Shown here piece by piece: positions 41,938 through 45,298 of a stretch of DNA of 64,000 nucleotides; position 1 is the first letter of the stretch, and every line of letters starts with the position of its first letter. Under the pieces are notes generated by a model, which worked only from the letters and a program-made list of their open reading frames with translations, was not told the DNA's origin and searched no databases. The position numbers and the translations under genes were made by a program. Origin of the DNA: Aggregatibacter sp. 2125159857 (GTDB lineage Bacteria > Pseudomonadota > Gammaproteobacteria > Enterobacterales > Pasteurellaceae); contig NZ_CP072548.1 in assembly GCF_017798005.1 (NCBI RefSeq), positions 558,001 through 622,000 of the forward strand, read 5' to 3'.

Positions 41938-41995
41938 GAAAAAAGTGCGGTCGGTTTTAAAAACGTTTTCGGTATTATGTAGCAGTTGCACAAAG
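41938..41995 (+). repeat. Left inverted repeat bounding the hvf islet
   Basis: This segment (uptake signal AAAAAGTGCGGTCG, then TTTTAAAAACG and TATTATGTAGCAGTTGCACA) recurs in reverse complement at 45243-45298. By eye the two match over about 55 bases with one substitution and a 2-base indel. The inner part TGTAGCAGTTGCACAAAG looks like an insertion-sequence end (begins with TG); the outer part contains the uptake signal. Confidence 0.85.
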
Positions 41996-42020
41996 GTTTA
42001 ATCGATTAAAAACCTTAAAA

Positions 42021-42050
42021 TTCCTATTGAAATTTTAACTCAATAGGGAT
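42021..42050 (-). terminator. Hairpin at the 3' end of the islet
   Basis: Stem CCTATTGA/TCAATAGG with a 9-base loop. On the minus strand it is followed by ATTTTAAGGTTTTT, so it could end transcripts running from the hvf operon through the IS fragment. Confidence 0.5.
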
Positions 42051-42291
42051 GTAGTGATCAGCTAATTCAACAGTTCCCGATAGGTTGTTTTTGTTAAAAC
42101 AGGTGGCAAACCTTGATTGTAACGATGTGGGCGAACAAAATTGTAATACATTACATAAACTCTCACATCGTCCATCGCTTGCCCCAAGGTTATATAGTCG
42201 CCCTCTTGCATCCATTCATATTTAAAGCTGCGAAACCAACGCTCCATTGGGGCATTATCCCAACAGTTACCTCGGCGACTCATACTTTGGG
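42049..42291 (-). mobile_element. IS3-family element fragment A (transposase C-terminal remnant)
   Basis: About 243 bases nearly identical to fragment B (44914-45157), same orientation. It encodes 73 residues (42062-42283) of an IS3-family Orf[18 protein letters not shown] holds the third catalytic acidic residue of the DDE triad (the Glu of PMER) and the following RSFKYEW. The rest of the transposase is missing. Relative to fragment B a T-run is one base shorter, so the last codons are frameshifted to [10 protein letters not shown]. Its 5' end abuts hvfC. Confidence 0.9.
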
Positions 42292-42993
42292 ATAAAGCAC
42301 TTCAGCATTAATCCAATTCACCCAAGTGTTTTCCAATAATGGAATTAAGGGGGTGCTATCTTCAACTACAGTATTTAAGGCAGATAATACCTCTTCTAAA
42401 GACGAAGGTTGTTCTTGTATATAACTTAATAGCCAAAAGTCAAGTTCAGATAAGCGTTGTTGCAGAATATTAAAATCGCTATCCCGCCATATAACAGCTT
42501 GCATAGGGTTTTCATCAAATTGTTTAAAATCGCTTGATAAAAAATCGACTTCATAGCTTTTTAAATAAGCTGCATCAGATAACTGCATTACGCTATGCTT
42601 ATTCCACTCAAATTTTTCAGGTACTTTTGCTAAAGAAACTTCTGCAAGTAATTGTGTATTTTCAAAATCCATCAATGCCAGTATATTGGCATCAAAACTC
42701 TCTTTTTCTTGACAAAATAAAAGAAATTCTCCTGCAATATCTTGAAAATAAGGCGAATGTGATTTTCCTGTTAATACAAACGTTTCTTTTGTCTGAGACC
42801 AACTCTCAGCAGAAACGTGTTTAGGTGCTTCAACAAAACAACGGTCAATAAAACCAAAGATGTTATTTCGAACTAAACGAGCATAAACAGCAAGGCGATT
42901 CGGAGCATAACCATTTAGAGGTTGAGCATTAGCCAATCGAACTGCTGTGGCAAGTGCTTTTTGTGTTTCAATAAGCGAAGGTTTAGGCTGCAT
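42280..42993 (-). CDS. hvfC: HvfC-like DUF2063 partner protein of an MNIO enzyme
   Basis: 237 residues. The N-terminal [19 protein letters not shown] region and [25 protein letters not shown] match the DUF2063 family, which binds precursor peptide and assists the DUF692 iron enzyme. It overlaps hvfB by 11 bases. The last three codons before the stop (PKV) and the stop itself lie in sequence shared with IS fragment B, so the original C-terminus was replaced by the IS remnant. The natural end cannot be seen here. The loss appears small, so the protein may still work. Confidence 0.87.
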
Positions 42994-43903
42994 AGGATAT
43001 TACCTCTTTTTGAGCATATTTTTGCTGTAGTTGTGCAATATGTTCAACTTCAGCATAAAGTTCTGCAAATGGAGGGAAATTGAAATCACGCTCTAATAAT
43101 GTTGGCGGAATGGCAGGTAGTCGTTGATAGGCATATTCTAATAAATCCCACACAGTACCTTTTACTGCCTCACCGTGCGTATCAATTAATAACTCTGGTA
43201 AATAGCGATATGCCCCTTTTATTTTATTAAATGATTCTCCTTCTAAATCCTCCACAACTTGTGCCGCAGAATGTTCTTCGTCGTGTCCTGCAATATGAAT
43301 GTAATTGACACGTTTCACATCTACTTGATCTAAAAAAACATAAGGATCAAGTAAACCGTGATTGACGCCATTTACATAAATATTATTCACATCTAAATGA
43401 ATACCACAATCCGCTTCTTGTGCAATAGCATTTAAAAATTCTACTTCATTCATTGTGCTGGTGGGAGAGTGTAAATAATAAGAGGTGTTTTCTAATGAAA
43501 TTTGTAATCCTAAAAAATCTTGCACATAGCGGATTCTCTGTGCTACGTGTTTTACAGCTTCTTCAGTAAATGGCATAGGTAATAAATCATATAAATGCCC
43601 TTCACATTCACAATAACTCAAATGTTCAGAAAAAAATGTCGAATTATATTGAGTCATTAATGCTTTAGTATTTTTTAATAACTCGCGATCAAGTGGTGCT
43701 TGCCCGCCTAATGAAAGTGATAGTCCGTGTACCGCAAGTGGATATCTTTCAGCGGCTTGATCAAATTTATAACGAGCAGCTCCTCCCATTTTTACCCAAT
43801 TTTCTGGAGCAACTTCCATAAACTGAATCGCATTATTTGATGATAAATTCAAAAAATCATCCGCTAAATCTCGACGATATCCTAATCCTGCACCTTGTAA
43901 CAT
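42983..43903 (-). CDS. hvfB: HvfB, DUF692 multinuclear non-haem iron oxidase (MNIO)
   Basis: 306 residues of the DUF692/MbnB family, TIM-barrel enzymes with two or three irons. Metal-ligand strings are seen: H59 in [12 protein letters not shown]93-H94 in SEHLSY, E138-N139 in SLENTSYY, D171-N173 in [10 protein letters not shown]203/H207 in YIHIAGH, D241-H243 in DTHGEAV and E271-D273 in ERDFNFPP. In H. influenzae HvfBC modifies the EGKCG cysteines of HvfA, giving copper-binding groups. Ribosome site AAAGGAG upstream. It lies 76 bases after hvfA in the same direction. Confidence 0.93.
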
Positions 43904-43979
43904 AATTATTTACTCCTTTTAAAACAACACTGGCGTAAATTTACACCAGTGTCATGATGGCATCTAGATTAAAATACGA

Positions 43980-44216
43980 TTATTTAGAGCCACATTTACC
44001 TTCACCACATTTACCTTCTGCAGCTTTTGGTTTGCTCGCACCACATTTACCTTCACCACATTTACCTTCTGCGGCTTTTGTTTTCACACATTTATCACCC
44101 ATACAAGGTGTTGCTGCTTTATCTGTACTGCTTGATTTTGGCTCAGCGTGTGCAACAGTAGCTACTGTCATCGTTAATGCTCCTGCTAATGCGGCTAAAG
44201 TGGATAATTTTTTCAT
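43980..44216 (-). CDS. hvfA: HvfA, secreted RiPP precursor with four EGKCG motifs
   Basis: 78 residues. Signal peptide about 1-24 (cleavage AHA|EP), a Ser/Lys linker, a CMGDKC pair (C38, C43), then two AAEGKCGEGKCG blocks giving four EGKCG motifs with cysteines at 53, 58, 70 and 75. EGKCG is the established modification site of MNIO-processed bufferin/Hvf peptides that bind copper in the periplasm. The DNA repeats coding the blocks produce a meaningless antisense frame. The gene precedes hvfB and hvfC. Ribosome site GGAG before the ATG. Confidence 0.93.
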   Translation of the reverse strand: MKKLSTLAALAGALTMTVATVAHAEPKSSSTDKAATPCMGDKCVKTKAAEGKCGEGKCGASKPKAAEGKCGEGKCGSK

Positions 44217-44250
44217 TTAAATCTCCTAGAGTTTGATATTGAATATATAG

Positions 44251-44706
44251 TTAGAGGAATTTCAACCAGCTTTTAGTTGGATAAACCTTCTTAATAAGCG
44301 TGTCTAAAGAGAGTTTCCCCGCTCCCTGCGTAATTAAGATTAATAAAGTTACCACATAAATTAAGGGTAATTTATAACCATTATCACAAACGTTATAACC
44401 TGAATCGGCGTGAATGCTATACCACGCGACAGAGATTAAAATCGTTAAACTTAATGCACTAAAACGTGTTAGCACCCCAAATATCAGCAAGAATGGGAAA
44501 ATTAATTCAGATCCCATTGCAACGTGCCAATTAATATCGGCTGGAATAAGATTAAATGGAAAAGGAAAACGATCTTGTATTTCAGTAAACCAATTTTGAC
44601 CATTCCATTTTTCTAACCCTGCCTCTAAAAATTCCCACGCAAGAAAAAAGCGTAAAATCAATAAACTCACGCTGCTGCTGATACCTTGCATCTTACAATC
44701 TTTCAT
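44251..44706 (-). CDS. DoxX family membrane protein, first gene of the hvf operon
   Basis: 151 residues with four hydrophobic segments. RFFLAWEFLEAGLEKWNGQNWF is the DoxX-family start, with residues such as HVAMGSELIFPFLLIFG typical of the family. DoxX proteins accompany most MNIO/bufferin operons; the role is unproven but may concern membrane quinone or metal handling. Here the gene comes first, 34 bases before hvfA. A strong GAGGAAAAA precedes the ATG at 44706. Confidence 0.88.
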   Translation of the reverse strand: MKDCKMQGISSSVSLLILRFFLAWEFLEAGLEKWNGQNWFTEIQDRFPFPFNLIPADINWHVAMGSELIFPFLLIFGVLTRFSALSLTILISVAWYSIHADSGYNVCDNGYKLPLIYVVTLLILITQGAGKLSLDTLIKKVYPTKSWLKFL

Positions 44707-44756
44707 TTTTTCCTCTGATTGATTACCTATTTTATGAAACTATTTAGTTCATTATG

Positions 44757-44810
44757 GTAGGAAATGCTTCCTAGTTATTCTATTAGTCGGAGATAAGCCT
44801 TTTTTCTTAC
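44757..44810 (-). promoter_or_regulatory. Candidate ECF-type promoter and palindrome upstream of the hvf operon
   Basis: On the minus strand TGTAAG (44810-44805) and CGACTAA (44788-44782) are separated by 16 bases, an arrangement like ECF-sigma promoters (GTAAC-type -35, CG-containing -10) that drive metal-stress operons with DoxX and MNIO genes in other proteobacteria. Below it a 6-bp palindrome TAGGAA/TTCCTA with 4-base centre lies at 44757-44772, in the leader or near the start of transcription. Both are by-eye matches only. Confidence 0.35.
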
Positions 44811-44865
44811 ACTTTTTTTTCAAAAAATTGAAAATATTATTTTTTGTAAAAATGCAGATAACATT

Positions 44866-44900
44866 AAGGGCAGAGATTCTAATAATCTTTGCCCTTTTAT
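44866..44900 (+). terminator. Orphan plus-strand terminator at the right inner edge of the islet
   Basis: AAGGGCAGAGATT and AATCTTTGCCCTT form a 13-bp stem with one G-T or mismatch position, followed by TTATCTTTT on the plus strand. There is no plus-strand gene before it in the islet. It sits 14 bases left of IS fragment B and opposite the direction of the hvf operon. It may be a scar of a lost gene. Confidence 0.6.
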
Positions 44901-44913
44901 CTTTTACTGATTA

Positions 44914-45157
44914 ATGTAGTGATCAGCTAATTCAACAGTCCCCGATAGGTTTTTTTTTGTTAAAACAGGCGCCAAACCTTGATTGTAACGATGTGGGCGA
45001 ACAAAATTGTAATACATCACATAAGCTCTCACATCGTCCATCGCTTGCCCCAAGGTTAGATAGTCGCCCTCTTGCATCCATTCATATTTAAAGCTGCGGA
45101 ACCAACGCTCCATTGGGGCATTATCCCAACAGTTACCTTGGCGACTCATACTTTGGG
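44914..45157 (-). mobile_element. IS3-family element fragment B (transposase C-terminal remnant)
   Basis: Second, slightly longer remnant. The 81-residue frame (44904-45149) begins [17 protein letters not shown] and ends [13 protein letters not shown]. It lacks everything before the third catalytic Glu region except a few codons (VTQS) in frame upstream. It is in direct orientation with fragment A, with the hvf operon between them. Between it and the right inverted repeat lie about 85 bases (45158-45242) of probable IS or scar sequence with no gene. Confidence 0.9.
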
Positions 45158-45242
45158 TTACCTGAATGAAGGTTGGGAGGAATAGCTACACCTTGAGTTT
45201 GAAAAAATGGAAAATTTATGCGGTAAATTAGTCAATTTTCGG

Positions 45243-45298
45243 ACTTTGTGCAACTGCTACATAATACCGAACGTTTTTAAAATCGACCGCACTTTTTC
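45243..45298 (-). repeat. Right inverted repeat bounding the hvf islet
   Basis: Reverse complement of the left boundary repeat. CTTTGTGCAACTGCTACATA is the inner part, and GAACGTTTTTAAAATCGACC and CGCACTTTTT the outer part with an uptake signal. It touches copy 2 of the dispersed hairpin repeat. Confidence 0.85.

Follow-up and report, generated by a model that had tools for sequence, protein, structure and literature searches.

How did an hvf operon, which in Haemophilus influenzae makes a copper-binding peptide, come to lie behind sucD in Aggregatibacter sp. 2125159857? The window analyzed here (the whole stretch of 64,000 nucleotides; assembly GCF_017798005.1, contig NZ_CP072548.1, positions 558,001 to 622,000 of the forward strand) carries the four genes hvfXABC between sucD and putA. 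A preliminary description had placed these genes in an islet scarred by insertion sequences (IS), and had suggested either horizontal acquisition or IS-mediated relocation. Our analysis indicates that the islet is very probably a mobile cassette that is non-autonomous and derives from an IS1595-family transposon of Pasteurellaceae, with hvfXABC, set between two copies of an IS3 fragment, in place of the interior. The exact ends of this unit, its 8-bp target duplication, the unbroken site in sister genomes, and its occurrence at four sites in two genus groups together argue for a mobile cassette that has spread horizontally.

Ends of the cassette and its insertion site

The features that define the cassette are as follows (TIR, terminal inverted repeat; USS, uptake signal sequence; ORF, open reading frame).

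41970-45269, no strand: predicted mobile cassette without transposase, 3,300 bp, with TIRs, an 8-bp duplication, an empty site in sisters, and recurrence of the unit at other sites
41970-41995, + strand: left TIR, 26 bp
45244-45269, - strand: right TIR, 26 bp
41962-41969, no strand: left copy of the 8-bp target duplication AACGTTTT, a perfect match to the right copy
45270-45277, no strand: right copy of AACGTTTT, a perfect match to the left copy
41943-41951, + strand: USS core AAGTGCGGT, by sequence the left half of the dyad terminator of sucD, which is split here; the dyad is intact in sisters (L101, L102)
45286-45294, - strand: USS core (ACCGCACTT on the + strand), right half of the split terminator by sequence
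41996-42049, + strand: subterminal left end of an IS1595-type transposon, preceding the first passenger ORF in parent elements; an 81-85 bp end is common to many Pasteurellaceae elements
45158-45243, + strand: subterminal right end of an IS1595-type transposon; 45161-45269 matches ends in G065 (L221) and G066 (L223) in two pieces

The outer inverted repeat noted in the preliminary description (41940-41995 / 45244-45297) is present, but it merges two parts, namely the cassette TIRs and the 8-bp duplication together with the two parts of a split USS-dyad terminator. G021 and G020, the sisters whose SucD proteins are closest (100% and 99%), have an unbroken sucD terminator, so that the clean joined site which had been proposed as a check was found after sucD in both. 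A USS dyad follows sucD also in congeners G014, G015, and G016, and G018 has a more divergent hairpin. The TIRs, the AACGTTTT duplication, and the sisters' unbroken terminator together place the cassette at 41970-45269, inserted in the loop of the sucD terminator. No transposase gene was found inside it, apart from two IS3 OrfB fragments (73 aa and 81 aa). Bounded by IS inverted repeats and accompanied by a target duplication, the unit corresponds to a mobile insertion cassette, which is defined in the text available from PMC3913671 by two inverted repeats, passenger genes, and a target duplication, without a transposase gene.

The placement between sucD and putA holds for the window, where the two genes are adjacent, but not for the sisters. 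In both of them putA lies ~124-133 kb away from sucD and a different gene follows sucD; the window's own genome has that gene elsewhere. A second rearrangement has thus taken place at the locus.

Beside the right half of the terminator, positions 45310-45765 are an interspersed repeat. A query starting here, with putA included, matched the own genome 119 times and each of eight congeners 2-12 times.

Cassette copies at other sites and in other genera

HvfB was found in 37 of 140 Pasteurellaceae genomes. Within the window's genus it occurs in three of nine genomes (its own included) and at three different sites, so that the genes are not a fixture of one locus in all relatives. The cassette was recognized in six of the 20 hvf loci fetched (G017, G018, G071, G072, G073, and G077), with 96-98% DNA identity. 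Beyond the window, three cassette sites were defined, each with a perfect 8-bp duplication, which makes four sites in two genus groups.

G017: duplication AGTGTTTT, in a USS dyad
G018: duplication AAAATATC, in a USS dyad
G071/G073/G077 (H. parainfluenzae group): duplication TAAAATGG, within a Met-rich repeat ORF

A flank of the TAAAATGG site is present in 11 of 11 genomes of the H. parainfluenzae group, and G074, G075, G080, and G081, the four cassette-free relatives for which the compared stretch spans the site, show no interruption there; the stretches from G076, G078, and G079 covered the other side of the flank and were not counted. Among plasmids, a near search matched a single record at 5% coverage, through an IS3 transposase, and a distant search of phages, which did not extend to viral_contigs, gave no match. 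In a further genome (G055, L157), an hvfB-like gene was matched as two pieces ~3.5 kb apart, which suggests a broken copy.

The sucD gene of the window is 78% identical to that of the H. parainfluenzae group, 77% to those of G060 and G065, and 86% to those of G017 and G018. That the cassette is 96-98% identical among carriers whose sucD is only 78-86% identical argues for horizontal spread; together with the clean empty site in two sisters, this bears out the suggestion of horizontal acquisition. Moreover, HvfB of the window is protein-identical to HvfB of G060, which belongs to another genus; the two genes differ at 4 codons, all of them synonymous.

Flanks were compared in 18 of the 20 loci fetched. 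Among native hvf copies, that is, those without TIRs and IS3 pieces, both flanks are common to G060, G065, G057, G076, G059, G063, G064, and G061, one side only is shared by G062, and neither by G008. By these flanking sequences, native copies mark one conserved Haemophilus chromosomal locus. HvfC ends in YPKV in all seven cassette copies and in YPKEG in the close natives G060, G065, and G076; since the YPKV end is supplied by the IS3 fragment in 7/7 cassettes, these probably go back to one founding capture. On the promoter side the cassettes are 97-100% identical to each other and ~70% identical to natives, while hvfB agrees with natives at 100% in parts. This indicates later recombination among copies, with a true donor that is probably unsampled.

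Could natural transformation and homologous recombination alone have produced this distribution, with the inverted repeats as passive remnants? Pasteurellaceae are a naturally transformable family, USS lie near both sides of the window copy, and the identities among hvf copies are mosaic, all of which would suit such an explanation. However, four different sites with exact 8-bp duplications require transposition, and we regard transformation on its own as very unlikely. Natural uptake may nevertheless have been the route by which the cassette entered.

Origin of the IS3 fragments

42050-42291, - strand: IS3-family OrfB 3′ fragment, left copy, which supplies the end of hvfC
44915-45157, - strand: IS3-family OrfB 3′ fragment, right copy, a direct repeat of the left copy

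As the preliminary description had stated, two truncated IS3-family fragments surround the operon. Both are 3′ pieces of OrfB, ~96% identical to each other, and both begin with TGTAGTGATC and end with CATACTTTGGG. Because the internal breakpoints are the same, one fragment was probably copied from the other. As one example of how this could have happened, a circle bearing hvf and an IS3 fragment might have integrated into an IS3 fragment already within an IS1595-type element, which would leave the fragment duplicated.

The position of the operon between two direct OrfB fragments might also be taken as the mark of an IS3 composite transposon or of IS3-driven relocation. Yet neither piece is a whole IS3, both being 3′ fragments with identical internal breakpoints, and in the carriers that keep both TIRs the duplication and the shared unit end at the IS1595-type ends, with the IS3 pieces as an internal duplicate. 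We therefore give this explanation, and with it the IS-mediated relocation initially put forward, very little credence. The composite transposon was rejected on the breakpoints and the target duplications, and the IS3 pieces are unlikely to have been the vehicle of the cassette. In G011, an IS3 copy lies beside a left end, but the junction differs and no cassette could be defined there. Vertical inheritance, with loss of the operon in most relatives and accidental repeats, could draw on the wide occurrence of HvfB and on the single Haemophilus locus of the natives, but it is contradicted by the empty sister site, the 8-bp duplications, the lineage-specific sites, and the 96-98% cassette identity versus 78% for sucD, and is hardly credible.

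The hvf operon and its putative promoter

44251-44706, - strand: hvfX, DoxX-like protein; NF050144 passed with 136 bits versus an NCBIfam equivalog cut-off of 80
43980-44216, - strand: hvfA, secreted precursor with four EGKCG motifs; NF050188 passed, 99 versus 95 bits
42983-43903, - strand: hvfB, MNIO (DUF692) maturase; NF003818 passed, 375 versus 360 bits
42280-42993, - strand: hvfC, partner (DUF2063) of the RiPP recognition element (RRE) type; PF09836 match; NF050145 passed, 166 versus 142 bits
44784-44811, - strand: TGTAAG-N16-CGACTA block, putative promoter of hvfX for an extracytoplasmic function (ECF) sigma factor

An EGKCG precursor, an MNIO, an RRE partner, and a DoxX-like protein are thus encoded side by side on one strand, and the gene content given in the preliminary description was upheld by all four equivalog models. 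Its label "hvf/bufferin-type" is right for hvf and loose for bufferin, given that HvfB scored 260 bits with the BufB model, below the cut-off of 310. Residues 1-304 of HvfB align to the solved DUF692 chain 3bww_A (520 bits), and the N-terminus of HvfA is signal-like. The reading frames of hvfX, hvfA, hvfB, and hvfC are open in the window copy and in all six other cassette carriers. No second hvf copy was detected in the own genome, in which the HvfB search gave one match only.

The hvf operon and its chemistry are already known. According to the text available from PMC13419390, the motif AEGKCGEGKCG occurs three times in the precursor of H. influenzae, and its six cysteines in all become copper-binding 5-thiooxazoles. 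By analogy, a resident cassette would act like H. influenzae hvf, with HvfBC oxidizing the EGKCG cysteines of HvfA (four here) to copper-binding 5-thiooxazoles. The EGKCG count ranges from 4 to 6 across the seven cassette copies, and hence the number of metal-binding groups may vary.

The putative promoter was sought in the 18 loci of the flank comparison and the window. The TGTAAG/CGACTA block occurs in 18 of 18 further hvf loci (L139-L156), with N16 in 17 and N17 in one (G106). Its position directly before hvfX was confirmed by alignment in ten loci, and the surroundings are ~70% alike between cassettes and natives. In the own genome, TGTAAG-N16-CGACTA has a single exact match, upstream of hvfX. 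According to the available text of PMC7907618, RpoE2, an ECF sigma factor, controls the DoxX cluster of H. influenzae after hypochlorite; a TGTAAG-type motif is absent from that text. An ECF sigma homolog is present in the own genome, with 54% identity to one beside the G073 insertion. Upstream of ECF sigma genes, a TGTAA-type motif was seen at 1 of 12 loci, and none like it upstream of the own-genome homolog. Cassette hvf is probably expressed from this conserved ECF-type promoter of its own.

In the H. parainfluenzae group (L143, 4164-4751 and 4985-8390), the cassette adjoins an ECF sigma gene and splits the Met-rich repeat ORF. Because an ECF sigma factor controls hvf in H. influenzae, this neighbor may matter.

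IS1595-type elements in Pasteurellaceae and a candidate helper

Of 140 Pasteurellaceae genomes, 80 contain the 26-bp TIR (at most 1 mismatch) and none the reversed pattern, so that the occurrence of the TIR is not due to chance. Many Pasteurellaceae elements have ends that match the first 81 bp of the cassette; the last 109 bp of the cassette match element ends in G065 (L221) and G066 (L223) as two pieces, one of 58 bp (98%) and one of 66-69 bp (89-90%). Among the matches listed, 34 non-hvf TIR pairs (+ then -, on the same contig) were picked by eye; this set excludes at least two further listed pairs, one at a contig edge (G033:C13) and one nested in a G068 element, as well as four single-ended stretches of G021. 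Of the elements so defined, 28 measure 5.4-14.2 kb, two 1.5 and 3.4 kb, and four 163 bp. These last four, all from G045 (L217, L230, L231, and L232), are miniature elements that share this TIR and have, in every copy, a perfect 8-bp duplication.

Cargo and internal USS were counted in the 30 larger elements, excluding the four 163-bp copies. A homolog of the own-genome IS1595 transposase (blastp) was found in 26/30, and the three transposases scanned (two from the own genome, one from G066) all matched PF12762 (DDE_Tnp_IS1595); NF033547 was also matched in the own-genome element. In the available text of PMC12561309, the IS1595 family is characterized by 8-bp A/T-rich target duplications, and ISApl4 (712 bp) has the TIR GGGGCTGTACTAGA. 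Like ISApl4 and the IS1016 subgroup, the elements studied here combine the IS1595 transposase domain with duplications of ~8 bp, but their TIR (CGGTATTATGTAGCAG...) is not that of the IS1016 subgroup.

An ORF with a DNA-methyltransferase motif was present in 20/30 larger elements by motif search only. Pfam and PADLOC scans covered 90 of the 123 non-core ORFs (one omitted ORF is 2,248 aa). Pfam gave N6_Mtase 12, C5 methylase 7, Methylase_S 6, ResIII 4, AbiEii 2, and YadA anchors 3 times, and methyltransferases were the commonest PADLOC models. As judged from these domain matches, the cargo is often, not always, of the restriction-modification type.

One such element lies in the genome of the window itself.

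C1:1024736-1033881 (L159 3237-12382): own-genome element of 9.1 kb; encodes HsdS, an N6-methylase/HSDR_N protein, and IS1595 transposase in two frames of 350 and 299 aa

It has the duplication TGAATTTC and is sited in a USS dyad. With its open transposase gene it is a candidate helper, which could mobilize the cassette in trans. The methylase and specificity proteins of this element (type I-like) match MADS defense models, below cut-off.

These data are consistent with a scheme in which an IS1595-family transposon kept its ends while its interior was swapped for hvfXABC flanked by IS3-fragment copies, and in which an IS1595 transposase supplied in trans would move the resulting cassette. Several observations weigh against it. 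Of the seven carriers, only G000 and G071 have another TIR pair with no more than 1 mismatch; G017, G018, G072, G073, and G077 have none, so that a helper with those ends was not seen there. The right end of the cassette matches other elements only as two pieces, and in G072 the right TIR of the cassette has been lost. Since the promoter side is specific to cassettes, none of the natives sampled is the exact donor. HvfA has four EGKCG motifs, not six.

Insertion at uptake signal dyads

Insertion sites were surveyed at 38 positions, comprising the 34 non-hvf pairs and 4 hvf sites (G071 and G077, which represent the G073 insertion, and G072 were omitted). The duplication matched at 8/8 bases in 30/38 sites and at 7/8 or more in 33/38; mismatched left/right pairs reached at least 7/8 in 34/1406. 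The target test was then restricted to 33 sites, after removal of L200, L202, L203, L213, and L222 (fewer than 7/8 bases matching). A strict USS dyad was present at 13/33 insertion sites versus 0.1% of 4,000 random positions, and any USS within 45 bp of the insertion at 22/33 versus 9.2%. Hairpin stems of at least 12 were found at 19/33 sites versus 7.9% of random positions, and stems of at least 10 at 22/33 versus 31%. A GCGGT...ACCGC dyad was present in 14/21 strong-hairpin sites versus 20/114 strong non-coding hairpins collected from other sequence totaling 240.5 kb (Fisher p 1.3e-5).

Inside the 30 larger elements, 13 USS were counted in 256 kb (0.05 per kb), with zero in 20/30, and the hvf cassette has zero as well. 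By comparison, flanking loci have a density of 0.91 per kb, and the window outside the cassette one of 0.96 per kb. An element poor in USS that inserts at a USS dyad would often gain the signal on one or both sides. We tentatively propose, with less than even confidence, that a Pasteurellaceae IS1595 lineage, often carrying restriction-modification genes and once reloaded with the metallophore operon, prefers the loops of USS dyads, and that the flanking signals would promote uptake by competent relatives. If this is true, the transposon would exploit the DNA-uptake code of its hosts as a transfer system; both signatures, insertion at USS dyads and USS-poor interiors, are present, and target choice may tie transposition to natural transformation. 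Against USS targeting, 12/33 sites have no strong hairpin, and the hvf insertion in the H. parainfluenzae group lies within an ORF. Furthermore, the hairpin background came from a different genome mix (mostly hvf carriers), and several insertion sites come from one and the same genome and are hence not fully independent. A plain preference for terminators as safe sites, instead of signal targeting, is possible.

Comparison with known systems

The operon has the same four genes as H. influenzae hvfXABC, each above its equivalog cut-off, but differs in being a mobile cassette and in its four rather than six EGKCG motifs, its divergent upstream region, and its IS3-derived HvfC end. With MIC231 and the qnrD mobile insertion cassette it shares two inverted repeats, the lack of a transposase, passenger genes, and a target duplication. 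It differs from MIC231 in its IS1595-type rather than IS231-type ends and in its cargo, a metallophore of the class of ribosomally synthesized and post-translationally modified peptides (RiPP); its mobilization would occur in trans. What is new, on the present genome comparisons, is a RiPP metallophore operon that is carried across genera by a mobile insertion cassette whose ends are of the IS1595 type. Among the matches listed in the literature searched (titles and abstract starts), no hvf on a mobile element, no Pasteurellaceae IS1595 transposons with methyltransferase cargo, and no USS dyads as transposon targets were described. An isolated operon annotation thereby becomes a defined mobile unit with exact ends, through which the spread of a copper-peptide trait can be tracked, and which points to a transposon lineage not found described in that literature. 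The trait is a described virulence factor in H. influenzae, and the cassette, which occupies different positions in related bacteria of the mouth and throat, illustrates how a trait of this kind can pass between species.

Compared with ISApl4, the related elements have another TIR, are larger (28/30 of the larger ones being 5.4-14.2 kb), frequently carry a DNA methyltransferase, and show a preference for terminator dyads; the own-genome element differs also in having two transposase genes. Tn7 has a transposase family different from the IS1595 type. The related elements resemble Tn7-like transposons with defense cargo, as presented in the available text of PMC8649781, in that defense genes are borne on a transposon, and differ from them in their preference for terminator hairpins as targets.

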